In this document: piece after piece, positions 11,558 to 60,193 of the stretch
Position numbering within the stretch: position 1 is the stretch's first letter
Layout: each line of letters starts with the position of its first letter
Source of the DNA: Paenibacillus aceti
Lineage (GTDB): Bacteria; Bacillota; Bacilli; Paenibacillales; Paenibacillaceae
Reading direction: 5' to 3'
Length of the DNA: 64,000 nucleotides
Assembly (NCBI RefSeq): GCF_003614185.1
Contig: NZ_KZ987724.1
Span: forward strand, 892,771 to 956,770
The notes under the pieces: model-generated
Told to the model about the DNA's origin: nothing
Database searches by the model: none
Seen by the model: only the letters and a program-made list of their open reading frames with translations
Program-made: the position numbers and the translations under genes

Positions 11558-11740
11558 TAACGAAACACTATATCGTTATTTTGGAGAAATCCACATCAAT
11601 TTAAATCTAACGAAACACCATATCGTTATTCGGGCGAAAATCCGCCATCTAGCCCCTTATTTGCCACAATAGCGATATCCAGTTTCGTTAGATTTTGAAG
11701 GGGCTCCTTTTGACGCAAATAGCGATACCCAGTATCGTTA
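11558..11740. repeat. Family A four-palindrome module (A1)
   Basis: Four 21-bp imperfect palindromes with arms TAACGA/TCGTTA start at 11558, 11608, 11670 and 11720 (steps 50, 62, 50). The first two run TAACGAAAC..TATCGTTATT and the last two are in the opposite orientation, so the whole ~183-bp module has a dyad in its centre. The gap between 11271 and 11952 otherwise shows no gene. Related modules occur at 19669, 36822 and 60061. Confidence 0.85.
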
Positions 11741-11869
11741 CAATTCAGGGCAGGCGTTTTGTAACCTGGAGGACGGTAGCAAGTCTCGTTACGGAGCTTG
11801 GGAATGACTGCTTTTCGTTATTTTCATGAAAGAAACATGTCGCAAAAACATATAAAATTGTCGTATACT

Positions 11870-11898
11870 TTGACTTAAAAACAACGATTTATTGTGAT
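11870..11898 (+). promoter_or_regulatory. Possible promoter of the Gfo/Idh/MocA-AraC-Gfo operon
   Basis: TTGACT (11870-11875), a 17-bp spacer and a weak -10 TGTGAT (11893-11898), about 55 bases before the ATG at 11953. Confidence 0.4.
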
Positions 11899-11952
11899 AC
11901 CTTAGTAACTAGATGTCAGGAAATTATATATTAATGTAGGAGGCTGAACACA

Positions 11953-12954
11953 ATGGCGATTCGAATAGGCAAGGCCAGTTACTGGCATGTTCATGCTTGG
12001 GATTATACCCATCAAGCCCAGGAGCATCCAGATACTGAAATTGTAGCGGTATGGGATGAGCAGGAGCAGCGCGGTCGCGAGGCGGCTGAGAAGCTTGGTG
12101 TTCCGTACTATGCCAAGCTGGATGAAATGCTGGCTCATCCTGAGCTGGATGCGGTTATCGTAGATGCCCCGACGGATCAGCATAGAGAAGTGATTACAGC
12201 TGCTGCGAAGGCAGGGAAGCATATTTTTACGGAAAAGGTACTAGCACCTAACTCGCAGGAAACTCAGGAAATCATGGAAGTGATCGAGCAGAACGGGGTC
12301 AAATTAACCGTATCACTCCCTCGCTTGAATGATGGCTACACCCTTGCGATTCAGGATATTCTGGGACAGGGGCTGCTCGGGCAGATCACTTATGTCCGGG
12401 TTCGTCTATCTCATAATGGGGCTATCGCAGGCTGGCTGCCGGAGCATTTCTACAGCTTGCAGCAATGTGGGGGCGGTGCCTTGATCGATCTGGGCTGTCA
12501 TCCGATGTATTTGACGCGGTTGTTCCTGGATCAGGAGATTACCGGAGTGAGCGCCAATTTCGGCTATATTACCGGAAAAGAGGTTGAAGACAACGCCGTA
12601 GTCAGCCTGTTCACAGCATCTGGAGCGATCGGAGTGGTTGAGGCTGGATTCGTGAATAGTCATTCTCCTTTCTCCATCGAGGTTCATGGAACGGAAGGAA
12701 CTCTGCTGTACGGCACGCCGGAAGAGCAGCTGCTGATTAGATCTAATCGGGGCGAGCTTGGGGAGGCTTGGCATCCATTACCGACCTTGAGCAACCGTGA
12801 GACCGCATTTGAGCAGTGGGTACGGCATATCCAGAAGGGTACCCGGGCAGATGAGAATATCGAGATCGCTCTAGAGCTGACCAGGCTGATGGAAGCGGCG
12901 AACCGCTCAGCCAAGGAAGGCCGTGTGATTCGTCCGGGATCACCGAGTCTGTAG
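11953..12954 (+). CDS. Gfo/Idh/MocA family oxidoreductase
   Basis: 333 residues, ATG 11953 behind TAGGAGG. An N-terminal NAD(P)-binding fold (KASYWHVHAWDYTHQAQEHP then VAVWDEQEQRGREAAEKLG) is followed by the catalytic EKVLAPN segment, where the family usually has EKP, and by the GGGALIDLGCHPMYLTRL substrate-domain signature. These enzymes oxidise or epimerise sugars, inositols and related polyols; the substrate is unknown. First gene of a three-gene operon with an AraC regulator and a second family member. This implies a two-step sugar conversion whose transporter lies elsewhere. Confidence 0.92.
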   Translation: MAIRIGKASYWHVHAWDYTHQAQEHPDTEIVAVWDEQEQRGREAAEKLGVPYYAKLDEMLAHPELDAVIVDAPTDQHREVITAAAKAGKHIFTEKVLAPNSQETQEIMEVIEQNGVKLTVSLPRLNDGYTLAIQDILGQGLLGQITYVRVRLSHNGAIAGWLPEHFYSLQQCGGGALIDLGCHPMYLTRLFLDQEITGVSANFGYITGKEVEDNAVVSLFTASGAIGVVEAGFVNSHSPFSIEVHGTEGTLLYGTPEEQLLIRSNRGELGEAWHPLPTLSNRETAFEQWVRHIQKGTRADENIEIALELTRLMEAANRSAKEGRVIRPGSPSL

Positions 12955-13893
12955 ATGATGGAGCGTAGAGCTGTGAGTTCTTTTCCCTATGAAGCCATGT
13001 TTGAGAAGCAGGATATGCTTGAGCGATTGGAGATCATCGTCTCTTGGGGACATTATGACATCCGCGTGCTGCGCTTCCATTTGACGAGCTTTGAGCCGGG
13101 CAAATATATCGACTTCCATAACCATGCGGAATTCGAATTCCACTTCATCCCTAGGGGTAAGGGGCGGGTCATTCTGGAGGATAGCCCCTTCTCCTTATCG
13201 GAGGGGATGTTCTATCTGACAGGGCCGGGCGTGATGCATTATCAGGAGGCATCGGCCGATGAAGCGATGGATGAACTATGTCTGCATGTCGATATCGTCC
13301 AGAAACGCCGGGAAGATGTAGATCCATGGGAAGCTGCGGAAGCGGAGGAATGCATGGAGAAGCTGCGCCACTGGCCGCTGAAGCCGACCCTGGACACCCA
13401 TCACGCGATGCATTGCTTCCTGGAGGCCTATGAGGCAGCTGATAAGAAATATCGGGGCTTCTACACTTCGATTAAGCAAGCTGTGATCAGTATTTTGCTG
13501 AAGGCGGCCAGAGCCTGGGATTCAGGGGATACCGCAGCAGAAGCGCCGGTCCGCGATATGGTGGAGCATCGCTATCAGTACGCTATTCAATACATCGAAG
13601 CGAATTATAATAATAATCTGACGCTGGAGAATGTGGCCGAGCAGTTGAATATTAGTGCAAGGCAGCTGCAGCGGGTATTTAGAAGCATGAATGAGAGTAG
13701 GCCGTTTAGCAAAATTGTCGAGGATATCCGCTTGAGTGCTGTCTGTCGTAAGCTGGAGGAGAGTAGTCTGCCGATCGAGCAGGTGGCACAGTCGGAAGGC
13801 TTCTCGAATGCGACCTATCTGCATTCTGTGTTCCGCAGGCGCTTCGGGATGACACCGGCTTCTTATCGTAAGCTGAAGCAAACTATTAATTGA
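12955..13893 (+). CDS. AraC-family transcriptional regulator with cupin sensor
   Basis: 312 residues if started at ATG 12955, directly abutting the previous stop. GTG 12973, nine bases after GGAG, is a credible alternative start. The N-terminal part has cupin motifs (YIDFHNHAEFEFHFIPRGKG, LTGPGVMHYQEA). The C-terminal ~100 residues contain the two AraC helix-turn-helix motifs (LTLENVAEQLNISARQLQRV and IEQVAQSEGFSNATYLHSVF). Sitting between two Gfo/Idh/MocA genes, it is probably the local activator responding to their sugar substrate. Confidence 0.92.
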   Translation: MMERRAVSSFPYEAMFEKQDMLERLEIIVSWGHYDIRVLRFHLTSFEPGKYIDFHNHAEFEFHFIPRGKGRVILEDSPFSLSEGMFYLTGPGVMHYQEASADEAMDELCLHVDIVQKRREDVDPWEAAEAEECMEKLRHWPLKPTLDTHHAMHCFLEAYEAADKKYRGFYTSIKQAVISILLKAARAWDSGDTAAEAPVRDMVEHRYQYAIQYIEANYNNNLTLENVAEQLNISARQLQRVFRSMNESRPFSKIVEDIRLSAVCRKLEESSLPIEQVAQSEGFSNATYLHSVFRRRFGMTPASYRKLKQTIN

Positions 13894-13910
13894 GAATAGG
13901 GTGAGTATAG

Positions 13911-14993
13911 ATGAGTAAAGTATATCGAATCGGAATCGTAGGTTGTGGCGGGATTGCCAATGGCAAGCATATGCCAAGTCTGAGCAAGCTGGACAGTGTG
14001 GAAATGGTCGCATTCTGCGACATTATTCTGGAGCGCGCTGAGAAGGCGGCGGCTCAATACGGTACGCCAGAAGCGAAGGTCTATGCGGATTACAAGGAAA
14101 TGCTGGCTACTGAGCAGCTGGATATTGTGCATGTATTGACACCGAATGATGCTCATGCGGAAATTTCGATTGCGGCGCTGGAGGCGGGACATCATGTAAT
14201 GTGCGAGAAGCCGATGGCGAAGACCGCTGCCGATGCCAGAAGAATGGTGGATGCGGCGCAGCGGACCGGCAAGAAGCTGACGATCGGCTATAACAATCGA
14301 TTTCGTGAGGACAGCTTGTATATGAAGAGACTGTGTGAGCAAGGAGAATTGGGAGATATTTATTTCGCCAAGGCTCATGCGATCCGCAGAAGAGCGGTAC
14401 CTACTTGGGGCGTCTTCCTCGATGAAGAGAAGCAAGGCGGCGGCCCGCTGATCGATATCGGCACCCATGCGCTCGATTTGACGCTATGGATGATGGATAA
14501 TTATAAGCCGAAGGTCGTGCTCGGTACGAAGTATCATGAGCTGGCGAAGCGCGAGAATGCGGCGAATGCTTGGGGACCTTGGGACCCTGAGAAATTTACG
14601 GTCGAGGATTCGGCATTCGGGATGATCGTGATGGAGAACGGAGCTACAGTGATGCTCGAGTCCAGCTGGGCACTCAACACACTCGAGGTGGATGAGGCAA
14701 AATGCAGTCTCAGCGGAACAGAAGCCGGTGCGGACATGAAGGATGGCTTGCGCATTAACGGTGAGCAATTCAGCCGTCTGTATACGAAGGACATTGAGCT
14801 TGGCAGCGGCGGGGTAGCCTTCTATGATGGCAAGGCTGAGAATGCCGCTGACGTGGAAATGAGAAAGTGGATTGAAGCGATCGATCAGGATCTGGAGCCG
14901 GTCGTTACACCGGAGCAGGCCTGCGTCGTCTCGGAAATTCTGGAGGCGATTTACGAATCGGCGCGTACGGGTAAGGCTGTATATATGAATTAA
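13911..14993 (+). CDS. Gfo/Idh/MocA family oxidoreductase
   Basis: 360 residues, ATG 13911, GGGTGAG ribosome site. It has the Rossmann start IGIVGCGGIANGKHMPSL, the catalytic CEKPMAKTAADARRM, and GGGPLIDIGTHALDLTLWMM. Compared with the upstream paralogue it keeps the canonical EKP lysine. Last gene of the operon; a strong terminator follows at 15050. Substrate unknown. Confidence 0.93.
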   Translation: MSKVYRIGIVGCGGIANGKHMPSLSKLDSVEMVAFCDIILERAEKAAAQYGTPEAKVYADYKEMLATEQLDIVHVLTPNDAHAEISIAALEAGHHVMCEKPMAKTAADARRMVDAAQRTGKKLTIGYNNRFREDSLYMKRLCEQGELGDIYFAKAHAIRRRAVPTWGVFLDEEKQGGGPLIDIGTHALDLTLWMMDNYKPKVVLGTKYHELAKRENAANAWGPWDPEKFTVEDSAFGMIVMENGATVMLESSWALNTLEVDEAKCSLSGTEAGADMKDGLRINGEQFSRLYTKDIELGSGGVAFYDGKAENAADVEMRKWIEAIDQDLEPVVTPEQACVVSEILEAIYESARTGKAVYMN

Positions 14994-15049
14994 TACGATG
15001 AAGCTAGAGTATTGAAACTGGGAGGGGCTGTCCAATCAGCCTCTAAAAT

Positions 15050-15094
15050 AAAAAGTTGGGCGGAAAAACGTCATGTTTTCCGTCCAACTTTTTT
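15050..15094 (+). terminator. Strong intrinsic terminator of the 12-15 kb operon
   Basis: Arms AAAAAGTTGG-CGGAAAA and TTTTCCGTCCAACTTTTT pair over ~18 bp around an 8-base loop, ending in six T. A-rich 5' arm makes it bidirectional. Confidence 0.92.
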
Positions 15095-15214
15095 GTGGGC
15101 CAAAGCCACAATCTCAAACTCATTATTTAATCGCGTCGGCTTCGATCCTTGTACCATCTATTAAGCTTACGTGGCGCAAGAAACACGGACGGTCAGGACT
15201 CTCCACGGATCTAG

Positions 15215-15390
15215 CGGTCAAAAATGTCCGTTAGAGCATGAAAACAACAACTACGCTCCTCTAACGGACACTTTTGACCCTTAGAAGCGAAAAGCGCCAT
15301 TTTTCGCGGCTATTTCCCTTGTAATGGACATCATTGTCCGTTACAAGAGTGGGGTGCCACAGAATCAACGCTAACGGACAATGATGTCCG
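15215..15390. repeat. Family C four-palindrome module (C1)
   Basis: Four 16-mers of the form CGGACA-n4-TGTCCG begin at 15215, 15265, 15325 and 15375 (steps exactly 50, 60, 50). Units 1 and 2 have one or two arm changes; unit 4 is a perfect palindrome, with TAA/TTA flanks on most units. The gap from 14994 to 15741 holds only this, the terminator before it and the hairpin after it. Confidence 0.85.
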
Positions 15391-15414
15391 TGTCCGAGTG
15401 ATCCGGCCAGAATA

Positions 15415-15487
15415 GGGGGCTGTTCACATTTTTGGGCACGCAAAAGAGGCGTCCCAAGTCGGAAAATCGATTTTTGAGACAGCCCCC
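15415..15487. other. Wide inverted repeat in the 15 kb intergenic region
   Basis: GGGGGCTGT (15415-15423) pairs with ACAGCCCCC (15479-15487). A smaller TTGGG/CCCAA hairpin sits inside. T residues follow the right arm, so it may serve as a terminator; it could also be the relic of a lost element. Confidence 0.5.
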
Positions 15488-15741
15488 TTTGCAATTATCA
15501 TTCTGATGAGCTGGCTGGTGACGGTAATCGTGTATAGGCGTTCGCTACGTACAAAGGTAAACCGATAGATCGAGGTGTTGAGAGGACATATCACTGAGAG
15601 GTGGTGTGTTTTTTTTGAGTGAACGTCATTGAAGAGGGCTAGTGGCTTAACGGAAAGGGCAGATGATCTCAGGGAAATATGGTACAATATTGAAAATCCG
15701 TTGGAGTACCAACCATATTTTGAAGAAAAGAGGGACATGAT

Positions 15742-15912
15742 GTGGATACTTCTGTATCTTTTTTGGGAGGGTTCTCGCTTTTATTCTTTGTGTTTTATTT
15801 GTTGATTGCCGTGTTAGGTGTCTATTGCCTCATTCTATTCATCAAGCTGGCGCACCGTGGAATCAAGGCCCTCGACTTTTATATCGCTGAGAAGACTAGG
15901 AGAGATCTGTAG
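15742..15912 (+). CDS. Small single-span membrane protein (56 aa)
   Basis: Starts at GTG 15742, six bases after GAGGGA. The sequence begins VDTSVSFLGGFSLLF and continues with a ~30-residue hydrophobic helix to about residue 38, then a basic tail (LAHRGIKALDFYIAEKTRRD). One clear transmembrane segment with a positively charged cytoplasmic end. Function unknown. A TACAAT hexamer at 15683 may be its -10. It lies 27 bases before the lipoprotein gene and may be cotranscribed with it. Confidence 0.65.
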   Translation: MDTSVSFLGGFSLLFFVFYLLIAVLGVYCLILFIKLAHRGIKALDFYIAEKTRRDL

Positions 15913-15939
15913 CTTAAGCATTGAGGAGTGTTGAATAAG

Positions 15940-16494
15940 ATGGGGAAGAGCGTTCTCCGCTTGTTAATTGCGCTGATTCTTGCAGGTATGGTTCTCTCAG
16001 GGTGCAGAGGTGGGGAGAACTCGCTGGCAAGCACTGTGAAGCGCGAGAGTCCTGCGAATACTTCACATGAACAACAGGATCATCCTGATATGAACGAAGC
16101 TAGTTTTACAGTCGAAATGAATATTCCGCCAGGGATCAAAGTGAATGAACCGTTCGTGGTTGAAGGTTTGTTGTGCAATAACAGTGATAGAGCGGTAGAG
16201 ATCATGCATGGAGCAGCGATGTTCACGTACAAGGTCTATCATAGCGACGGAATCGAGGTACCGATCGAGCATGGAACATATACGGTAAATGACATCGGGA
16301 TTGGGACTCTCCTGGAACCGGGCAGTAGGTACAGCTATGACGGAGGCGGACATATTAGCACGAAGCTAAATGAGATAGTGGTGGAGAAGCCCGGCAATTA
16401 TTCGATTGTAGCTCAAGCCGAATTCTCTATCAGAGGCAGCGAGGAAGGTAGCAAGGTCATTGAATCTGAACCTTATGAGATTGAGTTAAAGTGA
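15940..16494 (+). CDS. Secreted lipoprotein, unknown function
   Basis: 184 residues if started at ATG 15940, eleven bases after GAGGAG; GTG 15928 and TTG 15931 are less well placed. A basic N-terminus, a hydrophobic stretch (LRLLIALILAGMVL) and the lipobox LSGC mark a type II signal peptide. The mature part is acidic with an Ig-like beta pattern (FTVEMNIPPGIKVNEPFVVE, YSIVAQAEFSIRGSE), reminiscent of BsuPI/CARDB-type surface domains. Its stop overlaps the next gene's GTG by four bases, so translation is coupled. Confidence 0.75.
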   Translation: MGKSVLRLLIALILAGMVLSGCRGGENSLASTVKRESPANTSHEQQDHPDMNEASFTVEMNIPPGIKVNEPFVVEGLLCNNSDRAVEIMHGAAMFTYKVYHSDGIEVPIEHGTYTVNDIGIGTLLEPGSRYSYDGGGHISTKLNEIVVEKPGNYSIVAQAEFSIRGSEEGSKVIESEPYEIELK

Positions 16495-17246
16495 GTGCGG
16501 GTGATGTTATTTTGATAGATTTGAAAACATATAATAATTTGGGTGAAGTGAAGTTATTATTGGCCGAATGTATGTGGCCCGATGATGAACGGATAGCGCG
16601 TGAGTTGGATCAGTATTTAACGAATGATAGCAGAGGGCTCTTTGGCATAATGATTGACAATGAGCTGGCGGGATTAATAGGCATAATTCCCTACTCTGAG
16701 GATGCGGTGGAGCTAAAGCATATTGCGATGAAGGCTCCATATCGGGGGCGCGGAATAGGTAAGAAATTAATAGCTGAATATATGCGAGACTATCAACCTT
16801 CTACAATCATCGCTGAGACGGATCAGGATGCTGTAGGCTTTTACCGAAAAGTCGGCTTTGAGATTCACAGCCTGGGAGAGAAGTATCCCGGTGTCGAGCG
16901 ATTTCAGTGTATTCAATTCTATCAATTGGTTGACGATTCCAGACAGGAATACGGGTATACCGATGCGGACGGAATCATCTATGGTATGGATCAATTTATC
17001 GGTGAAACGGACTACTGGAATAGGGGCATCGGTAAACAGCTCATCAGCTCGATGCAAGATTATTTAATCCATCAGTGTCAGGCGGATAAAGTGGTCATGG
17101 ACCCGCAAACCTGGAATGCCAGGGCTCTTGCTTGTTATGAACAATGCGGATTCGTCAAGAAGAAGCTGCTTAAGGAGCATGAGCTGCATGAGGGGCAGTT
17201 CAGAGATTGCTGGTTGATTGAATTTTCCGTGGAGGTTGCCCGCTAG
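16491..17246 (+). CDS. Fusion of a GNAT acetyltransferase with the C-terminal half of an AAC(6')-like enzyme
   Basis: 251 residues from GTG 16491, overlapping the lipoprotein stop (GTGA). Residues 1-~145 are a complete GNAT domain (LKHIAMKAPYRGRGIGKKLI, DQDAVGFYRKVGFEIHSLGE). From about residue 142 the sequence switches to the second half of an aminoglycoside 6'-N-acetyltransferase-like protein: EYGYTDADGIIYGMDQFIGE, then YWNRGIGKQLISSM, VMDPQTWNARALACYEQCGF and HEGQFRDCWLIEF. The AAC part keeps the acetyl-CoA loop but lacks its N-terminal substrate half. The reading frame is unbroken. Family match is knowledge; a deletion fusion is inference. Resistance activity is not to be expected from half an enzyme. 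Confidence 0.82.
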   Translation: MSAGDVILIDLKTYNNLGEVKLLLAECMWPDDERIARELDQYLTNDSRGLFGIMIDNELAGLIGIIPYSEDAVELKHIAMKAPYRGRGIGKKLIAEYMRDYQPSTIIAETDQDAVGFYRKVGFEIHSLGEKYPGVERFQCIQFYQLVDDSRQEYGYTDADGIIYGMDQFIGETDYWNRGIGKQLISSMQDYLIHQCQADKVVMDPQTWNARALACYEQCGFVKKKLLKEHELHEGQFRDCWLIEFSVEVAR

Positions 17247-17351
17247 CTCCCCATTCTTAAGGAGGGTGCTGTGAAGAAGCTGTTCAGGGAGAAGCATTAC
17301 ATATTGAGACGATCGACGAGGGAATGAGACAACATATATTGAGGAGGACAT

Positions 17352-17729
17352 ATGAAGCAAGGATTATCGCATTGTCTGCAGATATTTCCGGTTCCTGATC
17401 TGGAACGGACGACTCATTTCTATGAGCGGATCGGGTTCGGAGCGGTCAATTATCTTGAAGCGGCGGAGCCGCATGTATGCCTTTACAGAGATTCTGTTGA
17501 GATTATTCTAACGAAATCTAATTTGGAGAAGATTACGCCGAACAGAGTTAGTCATGGGTACGGTTATGATGCTTATTTTGTTGCCTATGATCAGAAGGGG
17601 CTGGAGGAAGAGCTGAAGCAATTAGGGATCAAGATCGTAAGGTCCTTGACGACGACGGATTATAACAACCGCGAGTTCGTGTTCGAGGATGTTGATGGGC
17701 GCTGGATTGCAGTCGGCAATAAACTCTAG
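17352..17729 (+). CDS. VOC/glyoxalase-family protein
   Basis: 125 residues, ATG 17352 after GAGGAGGAC. It has the vicinal-oxygen-chelate fold pattern: QIFPVPDLERTTHFYERIGF, YLEAAEPHVCLYRDSVEIIL and a C-terminal REFVFEDVDGRWIAVGNKL with the terminal metal-ligand acidic residue. Similar proteins are called bleomycin-resistance or glyoxalase-like, but most have unknown substrates. Single gene; the 105 bases before it contain no gene. Confidence 0.85.
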   Translation: MKQGLSHCLQIFPVPDLERTTHFYERIGFGAVNYLEAAEPHVCLYRDSVEIILTKSNLEKITPNRVSHGYGYDAYFVAYDQKGLEEELKQLGIKIVRSLTTTDYNNREFVFEDVDGRWIAVGNKL

Positions 17730-17858
17730 GAACTCATACTTGCTATATATCGGCCGGAAAGTCGATCCTGCTATGCATCAGCAGTAAATATTAATTATAG
17801 GTAATTTTTCGCTTGTATTGTCTCGGAGTCATGGATACGGTCTAATCGGAGGTGCTTT

Positions 17859-18446
17859 ATGGTGAAAGTTTCTATTAGTTTGACGGATCGAGATACGAAA
17901 TTTATTATCAATAATCTGTATCCGCTATATTTGCATGATCTATCGGAGATTTGGGGCTGGAAGCCTAACATATATGGTGTTTTTGAGTCGGATGACACGT
18001 TGACGCTTCAGGAGCAGAATAAGGTGTTTGATATCTGGTGGGAGAAGCCATCCGTTCTGTTCCCTTATCTGGTGCTGGTGAATGATATTCCCGCAGGTTT
18101 TGCGCTTGTGGCAACGCCGCCTCATACATCGCCTGGAATCGAGTTCTATATGAATGAGTTCTTCATTCTGCGCTCCTTCCGTGGTCAGGGGATTGCTGAG
18201 GCAGCAGCCATACAGGTATTTAATCTTCATGCTGGCACTTGGGAGCTGCAGACGAATCCGGGGGAGGGCAACAAGAGGGCGCAGGCGTTCTGGCGGAAGA
18301 CGGTAGGAAGGTATGCGCCGGATACGTATCGAGAGGAACTGATTGAGACCGAGGATAACGGCAAGATGATGGCTTTTCGATTTGAAAATAAGCTGAGCAC
18401 GTCGATCACAAATAGAAATGTTCATGCTACGGAAAGGAATTCATAA
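17859..18446 (+). CDS. GNAT-family N-acetyltransferase
   Basis: 195 residues from ATG 17859 with a GGAGGTGC ribosome site. A GNAT domain with the acetyl-CoA loop FRGQGIAEAAAIQVF around residue 108 and LQTNPGEGNKRAQAFWRKTV following. The N-terminal SLTDRDTKFIINNLYPLYLHDLSE matches a Bacillota branch of uncharacterised acetyltransferases. Acceptor unknown. The DUF4269 gene starts two bases after its stop. Confidence 0.85.
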   Translation: MVKVSISLTDRDTKFIINNLYPLYLHDLSEIWGWKPNIYGVFESDDTLTLQEQNKVFDIWWEKPSVLFPYLVLVNDIPAGFALVATPPHTSPGIEFYMNEFFILRSFRGQGIAEAAAIQVFNLHAGTWELQTNPGEGNKRAQAFWRKTVGRYAPDTYREELIETEDNGKMMAFRFENKLSTSITNRNVHATERNS

Positions 18447-18448
18447 AT

Positions 18449-19012: not shown

Positions 19013-19050
19013 AAGGATAGAACAGATGATCCTGATGGAAGGAGTCAGCT

Positions 19051-19623: not shown

Positions 19624-19668
19624 ATGATGAGACCTTCGAACAGGAGTAGGTGGTCTGCTGCCGCAATC

Positions 19669-19740
19669 TAACGAAACGTGGTATCGCTATTCCCGCCAAA
19701 AACGGCCTTTGAAAATTCTAACGAAACAGGTGCTGCTAGA
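19669..19740. repeat. Truncated family A module (A2) interrupted by an IS3 element
   Basis: Two TAACGAAAC units start at 19669 and 19719 (step 50, as in the other A modules), with the typical CGCCAAAA-n-GGCC linker. The second unit breaks at about 19737, where the IS3 left end begins; units 3 and 4 are absent on the far side of the element. Confidence 0.75.
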
Positions 19741-19798
19741 ATAAAAAGTGGACACCAGTTAACAGACTGGAGATAATGAGACCAACGGAGGTGTCCAC

Positions 19799-20116
19799 AT
19801 GGGAGAACAGAGACAACGTTATAACGAAGAGTTCAAGAAACAAACGGTAAGGTTCATTCAAGAACAAACCAAAACGGTAGCCGATCTGGCGGAGGAATTG
19901 AATATTCCTCGAAGTACCTTACACCAATGGATGAGCCAGTATCGGGAATTAAAGAACGAACCGGCAGCCCGTGTAGATCGGGTACGAGAGTTGGAAGCCC
20001 AATTAAATGAAATGAGCCGTCAACTCCAGGAAAAAGAGCAAAAGATTGCAGATGTCGAAGAAGAACTAGCCATCGTAAAAAAAGCAGTGCACATCTTCAG
20101 CAAACCAAAGAACTAA
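19799..20116 (+). CDS. IS3-family transposase OrfA
   Basis: 105 residues, ATG 19799 after CGGAGGTG. An N-terminal helix-turn-helix (RYNEEFKKQTVRFIQEQ, VADLAEELNIPRSTLHQWM) binds the terminal repeats; a leucine-zipper-like coiled coil (VRELEAQLNEMSRQLQEKEQ) follows. The 3' end carries seven A (20077-20083), where a -1 frameshift would join it to OrfB. Confidence 0.93.
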   Translation: MGEQRQRYNEEFKKQTVRFIQEQTKTVADLAEELNIPRSTLHQWMSQYRELKNEPAARVDRVRELEAQLNEMSRQLQEKEQKIADVEEELAIVKKAVHIFSKPKN

Positions 20117-29297: not shown

Positions 29298-29337
29298 GAC
29301 TTGGTACGGGATCGCTGCATAGCTGGAGGGGAAAAAG

Positions 29338-29516
29338 CCTGCGATTATGCAGGAATTTTGCCGATCTCCCACCCGGTTAACGTAAATTCCTGCAAAAGTG
29401 CAGGTTTATCGGAGCGAAAAGCCCGGTTTGGGCCCAAAATAAGAAAATACCTGCATTATTGCAGGTATTTTCTTGAAATCGCGGTTTACGCCACTGAAAG
29501 CCTGCATTATTGCAGG
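29338..29516. repeat. Family B four-palindrome module (B1)
   Basis: 16-mers of the form CCTGCA-n4-TGCAGG start at 29338, 29389, 29450 and 29501 (steps 51, 61, 51). Unit 3 extends to a perfect 15-bp stem with a 4-base loop (29441-29474). Loops and linkers vary while stems hold. Sister modules lie at 36500, 55304 and 57090. Confidence 0.88.
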
Positions 29517-29621
29517 CTTTTTGTAATTTTCACCAAATATAGCCCGTTCGATGCCCCGATCCGCCGATGATCCCTATTTATATAAATAACCCGTAAGCAT
29601 GTTCGCCAGCTCGGTTTTCAG

Positions 29622-36403: not shown

Positions 36404-36499
36404 CAGGGCTAGCGCCGGGAGGTAGGTTAGTTAGTTTTAGTGTGCCTAGGTACCTAAGTATCTAAGTGCCTAAGTCTGTGTAGCACGGCAGTCCAAAAG

Positions 36500-36677
36500 C
36501 CTGCAAAAATGCAGGATTTATCACCCAAAACTAACTTTTATTAGGGAATTCCTGCAAATATGCAGGCTTTTCCACCTTTTTCTCTGGAATCGAGCCAAAG
36601 TGGAGAAAATTCCTGCATTATCGCAGGAATTTACGATTTCAGGGCGGAAGTGGGAGAAATTCCTGCATTTTTGCAGG
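36500..36677. repeat. Family B four-palindrome module (B2)
   Basis: CCTGCA-n4-TGCAGG units at 36500, 36551, 36612 and 36662 (steps 51, 61, 50). Unit 3 has one arm change (TCGCAGG). Unit 4 extends to GAAATTCCTGCA on the left with matching AATTTC on the right. Confidence 0.88.
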
Positions 36678-36821
36678 AATTTTCTATCACGGATGGTGCG
36701 TATTGAGTATGGGCGGTGTGCGGATCGGGATAAGTTGATAAATTTACTATACAGAGTCGAGCGACGGCCGAACGTAGGGCAGATTAGTTGGGATGCGCGG
36801 GAATTCGTACGTACAAAATTC

Positions 36822-37004
36822 TAACGAAACGTGGTAACGCTATTTACGCCAAAATAGGCCTCAGAAAATTCTAACGAAACTGAGGATCGCTATTCCGCCC
36901 AAATAGCCGCTTAAAGCCTCGATTTCACTCAAATAAGGATATGGTGTTTCGTTAGATTCACAACACCCCTGTTTTGGGGTAAATAGCGCTCTGCAGTTTC
37001 ATTA
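36822..37004. repeat. Family A four-palindrome module (A3)
   Basis: Units at 36822 and 36872 (forward) and 36934 and 36984 (reverse), steps 50, 62, 50, the same as A1 to the base. Unit 4 has one arm change (TCATTA). It lies 144 bases after module B2 in the same 714-base gap, which has no gene. Confidence 0.85.
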
Positions 37005-41221: not shown

Positions 41222-41403
41222 TAAGTGCCAATATGCAACTATATAGAGGATTTATCCTTCAGCCAGGAATATAAGTGCTATTATACATTTATTTAGACGC
41301 ATCCCCCTCAAATAGGCGATTTAACCAGTGGATAGTTGTATTTACACAGTTATTTTCTGGAATTATGATCCTTTTACAAGAAATAAGTGTATTTTAGCAG
41401 CTA
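41222..41403. repeat. Family D four-palindrome module (D1)
   Basis: Four 20-mers of the form TAAGTG..(8)..CAGCTA, each an imperfect palindrome, start at 41222, 41272, 41333 and 41384 (steps 50, 61, 51). This is the most degenerate family but has the same spacing as A, B and C. It occupies the gap between the terminator and the HAD gene. Confidence 0.75.
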
Positions 41404-51978: not shown

Positions 51979-52018
51979 ATGGGAGAGAGTGAATGATAGG
52001 GTTGCAAAATAGCGCTAA

Positions 52019-52043: not shown

Positions 52044-52081
52044 AAAAACAAATATAACATAGCAGATGAAGAAGGTGAAGC

Positions 52082-52462: not shown

Positions 52463-52464
52463 GC

Positions 52465-53331: not shown

Positions 53332-53962
53332 AATATTAAATCTGGTGCGTAAAGATTTCATATTGCAACGGCGTTATATCTGGATCATTGCTCTGTATGT
53401 AATCGGGTTCTCAGGATTGTTCATGAACAGTAATTTGAACATGCTATATGGACTGCTGCCGGGGATGATGTTAATCCTGGTCGTGAGCTCGGATATGCGG
53501 CAGGCTAATCAGCAATTTCTCGTGACATTGCCGGTTAAGCGCAGCCGCCTGGTGCTGTCCAAATATGTGACTTCAATCCTCTTTGTCCTGCTGGCGCTGG
53601 CAACATGCTCCATAGTTAACATGGGGATGTCGTTGTATCACTCACATTCTGCCAGTATTGATTATACCATGCTGTTGGCCAGTCTAATCTCAGTGCTGGT
53701 GTTGATGAGTATTTATCTGCCCCTGTACTATTGGCTCGGCATCCATGGAGGGCAGTATCTGAATGTGGCCATGATGATGCTGGTCATGCTGGGAAATGGC
53801 GCTGTATCTGGCATTGCTTCCGAATATGACTTTACGAACATGAGCACGTGGCTAAATTCACATCCGGTCGGTAGTATCGCGCTTGGCGTAAGCTCACTCC
53901 TGCTAATCATCGTTATATCCTACTTGATTTCTGTGAGGATTTTTAAGGGGAGGGATTTATAA
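53324..53962 (+). CDS. ABC-2-type permease
   Basis: 212 residues from GTG 53324, ribosome site AAGGAGG. Six hydrophobic helices (YIWIIALYVIGFSGLF through IALGVSSLLLIIVISYLISV) in ABC-2 order, with the KDFILQRRYIW start typical of bacitracin-type or YtrC/D-like permeases. Last gene of the GntR operon; likely an envelope-stress or peptide-antibiotic exporter. Confidence 0.85.
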   Translation: MSEILNLVRKDFILQRRYIWIIALYVIGFSGLFMNSNLNMLYGLLPGMMLILVVSSDMRQANQQFLVTLPVKRSRLVLSKYVTSILFVLLALATCSIVNMGMSLYHSHSASIDYTMLLASLISVLVLMSIYLPLYYWLGIHGGQYLNVAMMMLVMLGNGAVSGIASEYDFTNMSTWLNSHPVGSIALGVSSLLLIIVISYLISVRIFKGRDL

Positions 53963-54359
53963 GAGCGGGGATTTATGGGGGATGGATGGTCGATGCTGAT
54001 GATATTCGTCTGCCTGTTGACAACAATGATAAGGTGAACTAGGTGTGATAGTTAGGTAAATTTTGGGAAAATCTATGCTCCGCTTGTCGATACATGATCG
54101 CATCAAGGGGGGCAAATACACCGGATATTACACGCGGCTACGCCATAACTTGTAGCCTGATTGCATCAAGCTTCACGCCATACAATGGTGTGTTCATCGC
54201 GGTCGCTGTGCCATCTGAATCTCGGTATTTAGGTGGTTCTACTGCTGTGGCAGCATGGGGAAATGAAGGTTCAGTGATTAAATAGCCCCTCATTATGGGT
54301 AATCTTGTGACATAGGCTTCTTCCTGGTTCGCATGATCTATAATGAGGAGATGTTGAAA
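53963..54359. other. 397-base gap without a recognised gene
   Basis: A 63-codon ORF (54094-54285) has no ribosome site and no recognisable family. No terminator or palindrome module was seen. Confidence 0.5.
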
Positions 54360-55166
54360 ATGGTAGGTAATTCGAGGAATACGGGCAGGTTCAGCGGGAA
54401 AACGGCACTCATCACCGGAGCTGGCTCCGGGATTGGCAGAGCTGCTGCTTTAAGGCTGGCGGGAGAGGGGGCGCAGATCGCTCTCTTGGATCTGATTGAT
54501 GAGCGTACCCGCAGCACGGAGCGGCATATCAATGAAGTGATTCGTGGTAACTCGCGTGCCTTCGATGTGGATGTCTCTGATCCAATCCGGGTGGAGCGGG
54601 CGGTAAAGGAAGCGGCTGATCAGTTTGGCGGGATCGATGTGGTATTCGCCAATGCGGGGATTAACGGCACGCTGGCCCCTGTGGAGGAACTGAGCTTCGA
54701 GGACTGGGAGAAGACGCTGAGTATTAATCTGAGCGGCACCTTTCTGACTGTGAAGCATACCGTCCCGTATCTTAAGCAGCAAGGCGGGGGGAGTATCATT
54801 ATTACGAGCTCGATTAATGGGAATGACCGGTTCTCCGGCTTCGGCATGTCCGCTTACAGCACGACGAAGGCTGGGCAGGTTGGCTTTGCGAGAATGATGG
54901 CGCTGGAGCTGGCCCAATATAAAATCCGCGTCAACGTCATCTGTCCGGGAGCCATCGCCACGAATATTGATTCATCTACCGAGCTGAGCGAGGACCTGCA
55001 AGAAATCGTCATTCCCGTCGAATACCCTGAGGGTGCCCAGCCGCTTGCCCATGGCCCCGGCCACCCGGATCAAGTCGCCGACCTGGTCGCCTTCCTGGCC
55101 AGCGACGAATCCACCCACATCACCGGCGCACGCATCGTGATCGACGGAGCGGAATCGCTGCTGTAG
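54360..55166 (+). CDS. Short-chain dehydrogenase/reductase (SDR)
   Basis: 268 residues from ATG 54360, nine bases after GAGGAG; the frame extends to 54333 but with weaker starts. NAD(P) motif TGAGSGIGRAAALRLA, NAG motif (VFANAGING), catalytic Ser-Tyr-Lys as SSINGN..YSTTKAG. Classical SDR of the 3-oxoacyl-ACP-reductase-like kind; substrate unknown. Single gene. Confidence 0.92.
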   Translation: MVGNSRNTGRFSGKTALITGAGSGIGRAAALRLAGEGAQIALLDLIDERTRSTERHINEVIRGNSRAFDVDVSDPIRVERAVKEAADQFGGIDVVFANAGINGTLAPVEELSFEDWEKTLSINLSGTFLTVKHTVPYLKQQGGGSIIITSSINGNDRFSGFGMSAYSTTKAGQVGFARMMALELAQYKIRVNVICPGAIATNIDSSTELSEDLQEIVIPVEYPEGAQPLAHGPGHPDQVADLVAFLASDESTHITGARIVIDGAESLL

Positions 55167-55303
55167 GTCATTGGTTAAATGGGGAGTGGCGCAGAACCCT
55201 GAAATCCCTACAACTGTGGAACCCGTGTAACTGCCCATTTCCCTGCAAAGAGATACTTCATACCCGCCAAACTGCTGCTGCTACTCCCATCACAAACTCG
55301 AAA

Positions 55304-55481
55304 GATGCAAATATGCAGGCTTTTTGCCCAAATCTACCTGATTTGAGTAAATTACTGCATATATGCAGGCTTTTCCTCATATTCCCCTGAAATCAGGTCA
55401 TTTCGCAGAAAAAGGATGCATTTTCGCAGGAATTTACTCTCTGAGGGCGAAATATTTACGAAATTCCTGCATATTTGCAGG
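55304..55481. repeat. Family B four-palindrome module (B3)
   Basis: Units at 55304, 55354, 55415 and 55466 (steps 50, 61, 51). Units 1-3 have one or two changes in the left arm (GATGCA, ACTGCA); unit 4 is perfect and extends to an 11-bp stem. It lies between the convergent SDR and gluQ genes. Confidence 0.82.
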
Positions 55482-55647
55482 AATTTTTAGTGCCCGCGTG
55501 CACTGATGTTTATTTATCTAAATCTGCTCAATGCGCCCAATGTAGGTGTGAAAATAGGGGAAAGTTAGTGTGCTATGTAACGAGTGTCCGATCCCCCGCT
55601 TGGTATCTCAATAGTAACGTTTTCGGGGAGCTTCTCCTGCCTCGGGA

Positions 55648-56610
55648 TTAGGAAGGCAGGAGCTGGCGGATCATCTGCCCGGTCAGTATGAACGGCTGAT
55701 GCGAAATATGCGGCAGCGAGAAGCTGGAGGCCAGTTCGTATGGCTGGACGGGCTCGGGCATGTCAATGATTCCGCTGATGTAGGCCAGCCAGCCGATGAT
55801 GGCCTCCGGTTTCGCGCCAGCCATGCGCAGCGCGGATATGCCCAGATCGCCGTGGCGTTTAGCCAGGCGATGTCCGTCTTCGCCGAGCAGCAGTGGTGCG
55901 TGGGCGAAGTTGGGCGGGGTTAGCTCCAGCGCTCGATAGAGCTGGAGCTGGCGCGGCGTGGAGTCGAGCAGATCCGCGCCGCGCAGTACGTCGGTGATGC
56001 CCATAAGGGCATCATCGACGGTGACGGCGAGCTGATAGGAGTACATCCCATCAGCTCGCCGTACGATAAAGTCTCCGCCGCTGCCAGGCGGAGACGATTG
56101 TGGCCCGAAGATGCCATCCTCGAAAGAGATGGCATCTTCGCCAAGAGCAAAACGCAGCGAAGGCGTCTTGCTCTTGGCTTTTTCTATGCGCTCCGCTTCG
56201 CTTAGGAAGCGGCAGGTCCCGGCGTAAGCCGCGCCTTCGGAGGAGAGGCCATGCGGTGCATCGGCCACGGCCAACAGCTCGGCGCGGCTGCAGTAGCAGG
56301 GATAGAGGCGGCCCATCTCCTGCAGCTTGCTCAATGCTGCATGGTACAGCTCCAGCCGCTCGCTCTGCCAATAAGGGCCATGGGCTCCGCCAAGCTCAGG
56401 CCCTTCATCCCAATCTAATCCAAGCCATTTGAGATCGGAGATAATCCGGTCTGTTATTTCCGGCTTGGAGCGTTGTGTATCAATATCTTCAATCCGCAGA
56501 ACAAATTCTCCGCCTGCAGAACGAATTTGCAGCCAGGACAATAACGCGATCTTGGCGTTGCCCAGATGCATATCTCCTGACGGAGTCGGTGCAAAGCGTC
56601 CGCGTCTCAT
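55648..56610 (-). CDS. gluQ: Glutamyl-Q tRNA(Asp) synthetase
   Basis: 320 residues, ATG 56610. A truncated glutamyl-tRNA synthetase: class I start RGRFAPTPSGDMHLGNAK (HIGH-type motif), zinc ligands CYCSRAE..Y..C, KMSKS equivalent LAKRHGD, and no anticodon-binding domain. It attaches glutamate to queuosine-34 of tRNA(Asp). Length is normal for YadB/GluQ. A family B module stands on each side of this gene. Confidence 0.94.
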   Translation of the reverse strand: MRRGRFAPTPSGDMHLGNAKIALLSWLQIRSAGGEFVLRIEDIDTQRSKPEITDRIISDLKWLGLDWDEGPELGGAHGPYWQSERLELYHAALSKLQEMGRLYPCYCSRAELLAVADAPHGLSSEGAAYAGTCRFLSEAERIEKAKSKTPSLRFALGEDAISFEDGIFGPQSSPPGSGGDFIVRRADGMYSYQLAVTVDDALMGITDVLRGADLLDSTPRQLQLYRALELTPPNFAHAPLLLGEDGHRLAKRHGDLGISALRMAGAKPEAIIGWLAYISGIIDMPEPVQPYELASSFSLPHISHQPFILTGQMIRQLLPS

Positions 56611-56699
56611 CTTTCATTCACTTCCTCGTACGAATAACTCTGTCTGTCCAAACATCCGACCACTTTACGTTTACTTCCAATTTCTTATGTATCCTAACG

Positions 56700-56852
56700 G
56701 TCCAAGCACATTATAACTCGTTCGCAGAATGCTGTGAACAAGAGCTTCCAAGTTTTAACTACATCGATATAGGTACTATAGGGTACGTTGACCATGATGA
56801 AGCAGAGTTGCTGAATGTGGTGTCGCAGCCCGTGAATGCATCGGCTAAATGA
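56700..56852 (+). pseudogene. Short relic of a coding sequence
   Basis: The forward frame reads HYNSFAECCEQELPSFNYID then IGTIGYVDHDEAELLNVVSQ and stops at 56852. The composition looks coding, but there is no start or ribosome site, and the upstream part is gluQ promoter region. Family unrecognised. The rest of 56611-57525 holds only module B4. Confidence 0.3.
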
Positions 56853-57089
56853 CTGAAATGGCACAGTGATCTGGGCATTACTACTAAACCTCTCTATAGA
56901 ACAGTAGTTTGTTGCGTTGTAATGGAACATGGCAGTGGTGAGGTAAGTAATTGGTTAATCGCATTGATGAGCTGGAAAATATGGTTGGCAGAAAGTTAGC
57001 GGATGGGAATAGATTGGTTGAACAGTACCGTGTTGGGGGAGCAAATATCGCAAGGTGAATTAGGCCAGTGCCCTCTTCTGCCGAGAAAG

Positions 57090-57267
57090 CCTGCAATTAT
57101 GCAGGAATTTCGCCTATGTTCCCACCTCCAATGATAAATTCCTGCGAAAATGCATCTTTTTTCTCCCCATCGGCCTGATTTCAAAGAAATATGAGGAAAA
57201 GCCTGCAGTTTTGCAGGTATTTTCTAAAAATGGGGGATTTGAGTGTTAAAGCCTGCATATTTGCAGG
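57090..57267. repeat. Family B four-palindrome module (B4)
   Basis: Units at 57090, 57141, 57202 and 57252 (steps 51, 61, 50). Unit 2 is degenerate (CCTGCGAAAATGCATC); the others are perfect. It lies between gluQ and the divergent hrpB. Confidence 0.88.
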
Positions 57268-57525
57268 AATTGTCCTCTACTGTCCTCTACTGTCAACCTT
57301 CTTAGTCAGTCCGGGCGGAATCAGATCTATGTAATCCCTGCTTAAGTTCCGTTAGCAAACAAAAAGAATGAGAGCTTGCGCACTGTAAGTGAATTTTATA
57401 CGCTATAGATGATATAGGGTAGTGAGTAAGGGAAAAATGGTTGGATTGGGCCTTGTTTGGTAGTAAAGGTTAGTCCGAATCGATTAAGTAGCAAAAATGA
57501 GAAATTGAACGTACAGGAGTTAGTT

Positions 57526-60051
57526 ATGCAGAATAGAGAAACGATACCAATCGATGAAGTATTGCCGTTGTTAATAGAGAAGTTAAAAGTATTCGGACGG
57601 GCTGTGCTGACGGCGGAGCCGGGAGCGGGGAAGACGACGCGGACACCGCTGGCCCTGCTGAATGAAGCGTGGCTGGATGGTCAGCAGATCATTATGCTGG
57701 AGCCCAGGCGGCTGGCTGCGCGTGCGGCGGCTGTCTATATGGCGCAGCAATTGGGGGAACAGGTTGGTGAGACGGTAGGTTATCGGATCCGCACGGAGAG
57801 CCGCGTGTCGGCCCGGACGAGAATTACCGTTGTGACGGAAGGAATTCTGACGCGAATGCTGCAGAATGATCCGGGTTTGGACGGAGTCGGGCTAATTATA
57901 TTTGATGAATTCCACGAACGCAGTCTGCACGCAGACCTCGGATTAGCTCTGGCTATGCAGAGCCGTTCTTTGCTGCGGGAGGACCTGCGTATTCTGGTGA
58001 TGTCGGCTACATTGGACGCAGCTGCGGTGGCCGGGCTGCTGGAAGATGCTCCGGTGATTGACTGCCAAGGAAGCATGTATCCCGTGGAGACGAAGTATAT
58101 GCCCCAGGGAGCGAATGAGCCGCTGGAAGCGGCGGTGTCCCGCGTTGTACAGCATGCGCTGAGCGCCCATTCGGGCAGCTTGCTCGTATTCCTGCCCGGG
58201 GCTGGCGAGATCCGTCGCGTGCTAAGCGCGCTGGAGCCGAGGGTGGGCAGCGATTGTATACTGACCCCCCTGTATGGGGCGCTGCCGCAGGAGCTGCAGC
58301 AACAGGCGATTGCTGCACCGCCTCCAGGGAAGCGCAAAATCGTGCTGGCGACGTCGATCGCCGAGTCCAGCCTGACTGTGTCCGGGATCACGGTCGTCAT
58401 CGACAGCGGCCTGCGTCGTACCGCCTTGTTCTCTCCGCGCACCGGCATGAGCCGGCTGGCGACGATGCGCGCGGCCCGCGACTCCGCCGACCAGCGTCGC
58501 GGCCGGGCCGGCCGCCTCGCTCCAGGCGTGTGCTACCGCCTCTGGAGCGAGGCGGAACACCGCCTGCTGGCGCCTGCCACGCCGCCGGAAATGCTGGAAG
58601 CGGACCTGACGCCGCTTGCATTAGAGCTGGCTGCCTGGGGCGCCAGCCCAGAGGAGCTGCGCTGGCTGGACGTGCCGCCAGCCGCTCCATACCGCCAGGC
58701 CGCCGGGCTGCTGCGCCAGCTCGGCGCCTTCGATGCGGCCGGCGTGATCACGCCGCACGGCCGCCAAATGGCCCAGCTCGGCCTGCATCCGCGCCTTGCG
58801 CATATGCTGCTACGCGCTGTCCCGCTGGGCCTCTCCCGCGCGGCCTGCCGTCTGGCCGCGCTGCTCGAAGAGCGCGACCTGTTCCGCGGTCAGGCCGCAG
58901 CCCAGGACAGCGATCTTCGCAGCCGCTTATCGCTGGTCATGACCAGCGGCGAAGCGGGCAGCGGCCCCTCTCGCCACGCGGATGTGGATCGCTCCGCCTT
59001 GCAGCGCCTGCTACAAGTGAGCAGCCAATGGGAGCGACAGCTTCATAAGCTGTGCCTTGCCGAACAGGCTGCACAGGAGGATTGGCAATCGTATTGCGGC
59101 CTGCTTGTGTCTTTGGCCTATCCAGATCGGATCGCACAGCGGCGGTCGGACGGCAGGTATTTGCTGCGTTCCGGTCGTGGAGCCGCGTTCCGCACCCGTC
59201 AGCTGCTGGGGGAAGAACCCTTCCTTGCCATCGCCGAGGTGGATGATGAGGGAGCAGAGGGGCGGATACTGCTGGCCGCTCCACTGTCGGAAGAGCATCT
59301 ACATCAATTTTACCGGGAACAGATGGAGGAGGGCGCTCGTGCAGATTGGAATGAACAGACCGGTACAGTACAGGTGCGCCGTCGTCTGACTTTAGGAGCG
59401 ATTCTACTGCAAGACAGGCCTGACCCACATCCGACGCCAGAGCGGATTACGGAAGCGCTGCTCGCCGCGGTGGCCGAGCAAATCGATGTATTGCTGCCCT
59501 GGAATGCCAAGTCAAAGCAATTGCAAGCGCGGGTCGAATTCCTACGTCGCCTCGATCCTTCCTGGCCGGATCTAAGAAGTGAGGCGCTGACTGCCAATGT
59601 TCATGATTGGCTCGCTCCTTATGTCAGCGGGATGCGCAAGAGATCGGAGCTGCAGAATCTCTCCATGTATATAATCCTTGAGAATATGCTCGGCTGGGAG
59701 CGCATGCAGGAACTGCAGGCAGAAGTGCCTACCCATCTGCAAGTACCGAGCGGCTCGAGGATACCGATTCAATATGAAGGCCCGCAGGCGCCTTATGTTT
59801 CGGTCCGTCTGCAGGAGGTGTTCGGCATGATGGAGACGCCGCGCATCGGCTATGGACGTATCCCGATTACACTGCACTTGTTGTCGCCCGCCAACCGTCC
59901 GGTCCAGGTGACCTCGGATTTGCGCAGCTTCTGGAGCGGCACTTATTTTGAGATCAAAAAGGATCTGAAGGGTCGCTATCCGAAGCATTATTGGCCGGAT
60001 GATCCGCTCCAGGCCTCGGCCACCCGCAAGGTCCGCCCCAGCAAACCTTGA
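57526..60051 (+). CDS. hrpB: ATP-dependent DEAH-box helicase HrpB
   Basis: 841 residues from ATG 57526, ribosome site ACAGGAG; TTG 57457 extends the frame without signal. Walker A AEPGAGKTTRTP, DEFH box (FDEFHERSLHADL), SAT (MSATLD), QRRGRAGR motif VI, and the C-terminal HrpB_C domain (FWSGTYFEIKKDLKGRYPKH, then YWPDDP). The middle third is markedly GC-rich compared with its ends. HrpB cellular role is not firmly known; RNA remodelling is presumed. Confidence 0.93.
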   Translation: MQNRETIPIDEVLPLLIEKLKVFGRAVLTAEPGAGKTTRTPLALLNEAWLDGQQIIMLEPRRLAARAAAVYMAQQLGEQVGETVGYRIRTESRVSARTRITVVTEGILTRMLQNDPGLDGVGLIIFDEFHERSLHADLGLALAMQSRSLLREDLRILVMSATLDAAAVAGLLEDAPVIDCQGSMYPVETKYMPQGANEPLEAAVSRVVQHALSAHSGSLLVFLPGAGEIRRVLSALEPRVGSDCILTPLYGALPQELQQQAIAAPPPGKRKIVLATSIAESSLTVSGITVVIDSGLRRTALFSPRTGMSRLATMRAARDSADQRRGRAGRLAPGVCYRLWSEAEHRLLAPATPPEMLEADLTPLALELAAWGASPEELRWLDVPPAAPYRQAAGLLRQLGAFDAAGVITPHGRQMAQLGLHPRLAHMLLRAVPLGLSRAACRLAALLEERDLFRGQAAAQDSDLRSRLSLVMTSGEAGSGPSRHADVDRSALQRLLQVSSQWERQLHKLCLAEQAAQEDWQSYCGLLVSLAYPDRIAQRRSDGRYLLRSGRGAAFRTRQLLGEEPFLAIAEVDDEGAEGRILLAAPLSEEHLHQFYREQMEEGARADWNEQTGTVQVRRRLTLGAILLQDRPDPHPTPERITEALLAAVAEQIDVLLPWNAKSKQLQARVEFLRRLDPSWPDLRSEALTANVHDWLAPYVSGMRKRSELQNLSMYIILENMLGWERMQELQAEVPTHLQVPSGSRIPIQYEGPQAPYVSVRLQEVFGMMETPRIGYGRIPITLHLLSPANRPVQVTSDLRSFWSGTYFEIKKDLKGRYPKHYWPDDPLQASATRKVRPSKP

Positions 60052-60060
60052 GAGGAAGTC

Positions 60061-60193
60061 TAACGAAACACCATATCGTTATTTATGCCAAAACAGGCTC
60101 TGCAAAAATGTAACGAAACAGGGCATCGCTATTCTGCCCAATAAGCCGCTAAAGGCCTGAATTTGCCGCAAATAACGATACATAGTTTCGTTA
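60061..60193. repeat. Family A module with three units (A4)
   Basis: Forward units at 60061 and 60110 and one reverse unit at 60173 (steps 49, 63). The expected fourth unit near 60223 is replaced by the terminator. It starts ten bases after the hrpB stop. Confidence 0.82.

Follow-up and report, generated by a model that had tools for sequence, protein, structure and literature searches.

Intergenic elements built of four palindromes at almost fixed distances from one another are numerous in Paenibacillus chromosomes. We analyzed them in a 64,000-nucleotide stretch of Paenibacillus aceti (assembly GCF_003614185.1; positions 892771-956770 of the 5.57 Mb contig NZ_KZ987724.1; hereafter the window), in further DNA of this genome and in related genomes. 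Each element, or module, consists of a direct pair of units and, across a centre, a second pair in inverse orientation, and belongs to one of several families distinguished by the palindrome (A to D in the window). Comparison within and between genomes demonstrated the anatomy, geometry and dispersal of the modules, as well as the conservation of family A in place. The modules are most probably arrayed protein-binding sites in dispersed elements resembling bacterial interspersed mosaic elements (BIMEs). We favor this reading because the geometry emerges without sequence input, because family-A units and linker lengths are conserved in place, because base identity rather than pairing is kept in these units, because the modules combine high copy number with patchy spread, and because A modules are scarce between divergent genes.

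Geometry and recognition words of the modules

An earlier note on the window, made from its letters, had listed ten palindrome arrays, and all ten (A1, C1, A2, B1, B2, A3, D1, B3, B4 and A4) were found in place (Table 1). Its start-to-start steps agreed with ours at the other loci; at A4 they are 50/62 rather than 49/63. A sequence-free detector was given only the arrangement, namely two direct copies ~50 bp apart, inverted about a centre of 59-63 bp, and was run on 1.264 Mb of this genome (60 spread stretches and the window). At a score of at least 50 it returned 80 modules, compared with none in block-shuffled DNA and 3 when set to a wrong geometry (steps 43-46/52-56), which bears out the proposal that the spacing is uniform beyond chance. 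With the cut-off lowered to 46 the background climbed (131 real, 29 shuffled, 48 wrong geometry). Nine of the ten window loci reached a score of 50, A2 being too short for the detector; the other 71 of the 80 modules lay outside the window, spread over 34 of the 60 stretches. Extrapolation from the detector matches gives roughly 330 modules per genome. Fixed-geometry modules are real and genome-wide, far beyond chance.

Measurements in which spacing was not an input gave the following distances. In the 1.264 Mb, 36 pairs of similar palindromes lay within 260 bp of each other, with 15 at 50/51, 6 at 61/62, 5 at 112 and 10 at other distances. For nearest neighbours of one family lying within 400 bp of each other, 102 of 103 family-A steps were 49-51 or 61-62 bp (63 at 50, 2 at 49, 1 at 51, 35 at 62 and 1 at 61), the last being 113. 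Family B gave 20 pairs (10 at 50/51, 6 at 61, 4 at 112) and family C 28 (18 at 50/51, 9 at 59/60, 1 at 109); with the loose pattern used for family D, 45 of 69 steps were 50/51/61/62 and the other 24 were scattered. By arithmetic, same-face helical phasing at 5 and 6 turns would require ~10.1-10.2 bp per turn.

The family-A unit is a bipartite palindrome, TAACGAAAC-N5-A-W-CG-Y-TA, and perfect pairs of it numbered 94 forward and 86 reverse. The B unit, with a core gap of 4, occurred at 317 places with at most one mismatch (control, 5); the form CCTGCA-N5-TGCAGG was discarded, having only 39 places with one mismatch (control, 5). None of 92 modules placed between two coding calls overlapped a coding call. 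The palindromes are thus short, extragenic and present in more than 100 copies, as are repetitive extragenic palindromes (REPs) and BIMEs, and they are regularly spaced in inverted orientation, but as inverted pairs of direct repeats.

We surveyed the words in 3.27 Mb of DNA drawn from this genome and its relatives (detector score at least 54, coarse word sorting), which gave 252 matches compared with none in shuffled DNA. They comprised TAACGAAAC (157), D (TGCA; 25), C (GGACA; 23), B (CCTGCA; 19), TAACGGAAA (4), TARCGGGAA (2), TAACGGTTG (1) and 21 others, several of which are coding tandem repeats. These counts are not frequencies, because much of the DNA was chosen for its family-A modules and certain loci are represented twice: public GM2/D2_2 loci may overlap stretches of the related genomes G032/G031, and two stretches of this genome sit within a longer one. 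Searching by geometry, as the earlier note had advised, thereby yielded three words besides A-D, namely TAACGGAAA, TARCGGGAA and TAACGGTTG. The inner words are of GAAAC, GGACA, GGAAA, GGGAA, GGTTG and TGCA types, with GGTTG in one module and GGGAA in two. Most words share an outer TAAC/GTTA-like or TA-R frame around a varying inner word. Families A, C and D and the relatives' words have the outer TAAC or TA-R...Y-TA; family B lacks this frame, and TGCA is common to B and D. Palindromes once described as unrelated therefore become one frame with a changing inner word. The linkers of both arms in A, B and D, read inward, follow a weak common template, with an A-tract ~9-12 bp inside each unit.

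Several loci bear on how the arrays change. A unit near 3879284 (L088) joins an A unit to a B unit, and another near 1818527 (L065) joins B unit 1 to unit 3; both look like products of inter-unit recombination, through which, by eye, units seem to be lost. Arrays in G032 seem, also by eye, to grow by 50-bp monomers: at the A3 locus of this GM2-like genome the arms hold more than two of them. Tandem A pairs with a 200 bp period were seen in L148, with L143 and L122 noted alongside.

Conservation of family A in place

Nine orthologous groups of family A, comprising 25 modules, were compared in G011, G031 and G032, with this genome represented in two groups. The TAACGAAAC 9-mer had 10 changes in 324 columns and the CG and TA of the unit 4 in 144, against 42 in 180 for the unit centre, 304 in 891 for the linkers and 514 in 698 for the 40-bp flanks. 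The fourth unit that A4 has lost in this genome was counted as a unit and adds changes to the unit tally. Steps were 50/62/50 in 19 of the 25 modules. Pairs left out as non-orthologous, with linker differences of 46-58 of 99, were G000 83282 with G011 70836 and with G032 72237, G000 36821 with G032 38300, and G011 70836 with G032 72237. Extra G032 copies were also excluded, and the linker-gap count further excludes this genome's two members.

Across 19 overlapping pairs, which are not independent, the linkers carried 406 substitutions but only 7 gap openings, where 43.9 were expected from the indel rate of module-free spacers in the same genome pairs. The seven G011-G032 pairs alone gave 136 substitutions and 1 gap opening, with 15.0 expected. 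Aligning orthologous regions, another suggestion of the earlier note, thus revealed nearly unchanged half-sites between drifting linkers of constant length. Its statement that linkers differ and keep their length stands as to length, and must be amended as to sequence by the weak shared template. In family A, the geometry looks selected, not only inherited.

This result bears on the possibility that the constant geometry reflects mere common descent of one repeat and that the apparent constraint reflects its young age. The weak template that the linkers of A, B and D share, both inside a family and across families, would fit such an origin, as would the outer TAAC common to several families. 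Linker indels are, however, about six times rarer than the substitutions predict, and the 50-bp step recurs in other genera with other linkers. We therefore regard common descent alone as very unlikely.

Changes within the units distinguish base identity from base pairing. Position 14 was unchanged within every group despite mismatching its partner, position 6; at position 18 there were 11 changes, against none at its partner, position 2. Base identity, not pairing, is kept in family-A units. Such sequence-specific conservation of a palindrome in place, a trait of operators, was found in family A, the family compared. One conserved cluster of three modules holds a long open reading frame (ORF) and, by eye, a transporter-like and an SPFH-like gene.

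Dispersal, gene context and RNA folding

The family-A pair pattern was present in 24 of 395 genomes of the Paenibacillaceae, in 11 of 19 genera. Fifteen of the 24 had at least 3 matches on both strands and the other nine 1 to 5 matches in all; a control pattern never gave more than one match per strand. In a sample of 151 genomes of the class, the pattern was absent from all 139 of other families and from 11 further family members. Among the matches listed, A pairs occurred in Paenibacillus, Cohnella and Thermobacillus species, and five single matches fell in other phyla or classes, a number that we estimate chance could give. B pairs were found in 16 of 41 genus genomes (control, 0). In 20 stretches of ten other genomes, the detector (score at least 50) returned 22 matches in eight genomes; the two in G289 and most of the five in G296 look like coding or tandem repeats. 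Viral contigs held the A pattern in 13 stretches, two with an inverted pair 124 bp on, and no match to the B pattern. One viral contig carries a family-A module between genes resembling phage tail genes (L303:8803-8985), and modules may enter or ride in prophages.

Counterparts were sought for 26 detector matches in 264 kb of this genome and counted where both flanks anchor. The nearest three of 40 genus genomes are ~80-81% identical (86% over 611 bp for a P. glycanilyticus pair), and ~80% identity is too low for reading exact junctions. Several of the relatives' matching gaps span only 32-133 bp (Table 1). Between relatives, shared modules were found in 14 of 21 G032-G011 cases (tandem copies counted singly), 5 of 7 G031-G011 cases and 5 of 6 G031-G032 cases.

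Table 1. Modules and carrier repeat in the window, with the state of the matching gaps in three related genomes
Feature	Position	Strand	Description	Related genomes
A1	11558..11740	.	four TAACGAAAC-type units, steps 50/62/50	module absent from G031 (gap 133 bp), G032 and G011
MITE-like repeat carrying C1	15024..15486	+	ends GGGGCTGTC...GACAGCCCC	
C1	15213..15392	.	four ACGGACA-type units, steps 50/60/50	A module instead in G031 and G032; half an A module in G011
A2	19669..19727	+	two family-A units, second cut by inserted IS	
B1	29336..29519	.	four CCTGCA-type units, steps 51/61/51	
B2	36498..36680	.	four CCTGCA-type units, steps 51/61/50	B module absent from all three; A modules at this place in G032
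A3	36822..37004	.	four family-A units, steps 50/62/50	absent from G031; in G011 one remaining unit (by eye); in G032 A modules that are dissimilar
D1	41222..41403	.	four TARNTGCA-type units, steps 50/61/51; directly behind terminator-like hairpin (by eye)	gap of 44 bp in G031
B3	55302..55484	.	steps 50/61/51	gaps of 32 bp (G011), 54 bp (G031) and 108 bp (G032)
B4	57088..57270	.	steps 51/61/50	no module in G031 or G032; D-type module in G011
A4	60061..60193	+	three family-A units, steps 50/62; stop codon on one side, terminator on the other	orthologous modules of four units in all three
IS, insertion sequence; MITE, miniature inverted-repeat transposable element.

Family-C modules lie inside a repeat of 430-470 bp with apparent terminal inverted repeats, and their linkers are conserved because C sits inside this MITE-like repeat. 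Pieces of the C1 carrier, 84.8-96.7% identical, occur in nine other sampled stretches, and near 1628853 (L063) a C-type repeat is apparently inserted within a unit of an A module. Paenibacillus sp. MSJ-34 has seven A-type modules (L117, L118, L145, L174, L177, L184), most of them in a longer repeat whose terminal inverted repeats were recognized by eye, with ends like AGTCAATTTCAT...ATGAAATTGACT. In A, B and D, sequence conservation does not extend far past the outer units, and no offset showed an excess of matching flanks that would indicate target-site duplication in A (31), B (8) or D (13); C (9) is uninformative in this respect because its flanks belong to the repeat. The earlier note would have given up its reading if the linkers proved to be conserved as an ordinary transposable repeat; this is true of family C, and family-A orthologues have linkers that drift. 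Its contrast with MITEs and REPs survives insofar as the geometry looks selected, and falls insofar as the modules are also dispersed repeats. In the window, an IS interrupts A2 inside a unit (19719-19830), and near 4683430 (L097) the end of what appears to be the same IS lies next to the right half of a different A unit, as though the element targeted the palindrome.

The modules might accordingly be purely selfish MITE- or REPIN-like repeats (REPINs are REP doublets), with palindromes serving as sites of a trans-acting transposition enzyme, spacing needed for transposition only, and no host role. Modules standing where relatives have short gaps, the repeats with apparent terminal inverted repeats around C and most of the MSJ-34 copies, the scarcity in divergent gaps, the patchy spread over taxa and the module among phage tail-type genes would all suit this explanation. 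Immobile selfish copies should, however, decay evenly, whereas orthologous family-A units and linker lengths are kept while the linkers drift. The lack of a target-site duplication signal in A, B and D, and of any Y1_Tnp match in the A-rich G011, G031 and G032, also argues against it, and we consider it rather unlikely.

Gene positions were counted with a heuristic gene finder (73% coding), excluding matches below 35 bits or without flanking gene calls on both sides. A modules were found in 18 convergent, 30 tandem and 1 divergent gap (1 of 49), compared with 99/422/110 for all gaps of at least 50 bp, and modules were nearer gene ends than gene starts. The same positional bias would come from anything avoiding promoters. 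Of 31 family-A modules, 28 could be scored for strand, and in 26 of these the unit centres have GG on one strand. The GG strand favored neither the direction of the adjacent genes (++, 5 C/4 G; --, 4 C/5 G) nor the leading strand (8/8 and 6/9). GC skew places the replication origin at about 4.29 Mb and the terminus at about 1.31 Mb. A link between family B and replication, considered since perfect units seemed absent from 1.2-3.2 Mb, was rejected in view of these positions and because B pairs occur inside this arc.

Location behind genes and GG polarity would also fit RNA elements, that is, modules transcribed as 3' untranslated regions or small RNAs, whose hairpins act as terminators, stabilizers or protein-binding loops. 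Mean folding z-scores over both strands were strongly negative for A (-5.7, 14 modules), B (-6.5, 12), C (-8.9, 9) and D (-2.5, 14), and B units resemble, by eye, terminators with A and T runs. Folding was strong on both strands and is therefore not diagnostic. The GG strand follows neither gene nor leading strand, and changes at paired unit positions are uncompensated. Units across the two arms are less alike within a module than between modules, which partly reflects the GG polarity, and a covariance search of the window against Rfam gave no match at the gathering threshold. Taken with these points, a role in RNA appears very unlikely.

Proposed protein binding and related repeat systems

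We hold, with moderate confidence, that a module serves as a composite site to which a sequence-specific and probably dimeric protein binds, and that modules dispersed and were then, in family A, kept by selection. Two units on each side point inward, with steps of 50 bp inside an arm and 60-62 bp across the centre and with the A-tract between, and four dimers could assemble as one complex over ~183 bp. As repeats, some of them within MITE-like carriers, the modules spread into the spacers that follow genes; once in place, family-A units and their spacing would be kept by selection. The recognition word would have changed several times within the Paenibacillaceae with the geometry kept, as if site and protein changed together. 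From the sequence comparison we infer the protein, its cooperative assembly and any role, which may lie in structuring the chromosome or insulating neighbouring transcription units.

Several results weigh against this interpretation. Of the anchored cases, only 3 of 18 (G031), 1 of 15 (G032) and 2 of 17 (G011) had a module of the same family in the corresponding gap. In this genome, then, most modules that could be anchored lack a same-family counterpart in the three relatives and so have spread, and the missing counterparts fit mobile repeats just as well. The comparison in place covers family A alone, in three relatives, and the orthologue scan (at most 15/60 mismatches, steps within 1-2 bp) favors conserved, intact modules, though 7 of 8 G011 modules were paired in G032. 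In a cruder count, with flanks in the mask, gap rates per substitution were 0.102, 0.086 and 0.048 for modules and 0.111, 0.127 and 0.091 for module-free spacers, a much smaller difference and almost none for G011-G032. Among 236 ORFs within 1.5 kb of A pairs, no convincing cognate gene was found; several ORF clusters were common to two genomes and one, AraC-like by eye and of a common type, to three. Finally, two stretches each of G020 and G037 gave no detector match at score 50, so the elements are not universal even within the genus.

The claim that no system of this form had been described was too wide, as inverted, regularly spaced extragenic palindromes are known as BIMEs and REPs. According to PMC2817692, these are high-copy, regularly spaced, alternating in orientation and reported to bind several proteins, with several families coevolving with their transposases. 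The present modules are alike in copy number, regular spacing and variety of families, but consist of 2+2 direct pairs inverted about a centre, with near-fixed steps common to several words. They also differ in lacking a Y1 transposase match in three A-rich genomes (A pairs on the two strands: G011, 55+64; G031, 35+43; G032, 138+135). IS200/RAYT was ruled out on this ground as the mover of family A, and no enzyme responsible for the spread was found. With bearing on family B, Y1_Tnp matches numbered 14 in this genome, 14 in G007 and 7 in G016, with none in G011 and G031. A GTAG- or CGTC-type tag beside the palindrome, a REP/RAYT trait according to PMC3733652, was not seen by eye in the family-A flank consensus. 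We did not file the modules as REPs because the REP-type transposase, sought for family A, was not found in the A-rich genomes.

REPINs, as portrayed in PMC3116915, are inverted doublets that form the unit of spread, with several sequence groups per genome. The modules share both features, but have four sites rather than two, and family-A copies are conserved in place between species. The BOX, RUP and SPRITE repeats of Streptococcus pneumoniae, likewise small, interspersed in a Gram-positive genome and slow to move, were judged parasitic by their authors (PMC3049150); here, by contrast, units and spacing show selection in place. A limited literature search found no description of such elements, and Paenibacillus does not occur in the portion of PMC1590033 seen.

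Plasmid partition sites such as sopC of F are built of tandem 43-50 bp repeat units, and every unit contains an inverted repeat that a dimeric protein recognizes. The ~50-bp repeat with an inverted repeat per unit is similar; the modules differ in being chromosomal, numbering hundreds by extrapolation, and having inverted arms and several words, with no linked partition gene noticed. A bolder and more doubtful possibility is a chromosome-wide docking system, in which four dimers of an undescribed protein family would occupy ~183 bp with near-constant phasing at hundreds of sites per genome. The word would have been replaced repeatedly while frame and geometry were kept, and the modules might act as insulators or architectural nodes at transcription-unit ends.

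Structural roles have already been suggested for REP/BIME-type repeats, and it would be unusual to find such copies clearly selected in place together with their spacing. If true, the proposed reading predicts a new family of DNA-binding proteins with switching specificity. As sites, words and spacing vary across species, it becomes possible to test whether such elements are parasites or components of the chromosome.

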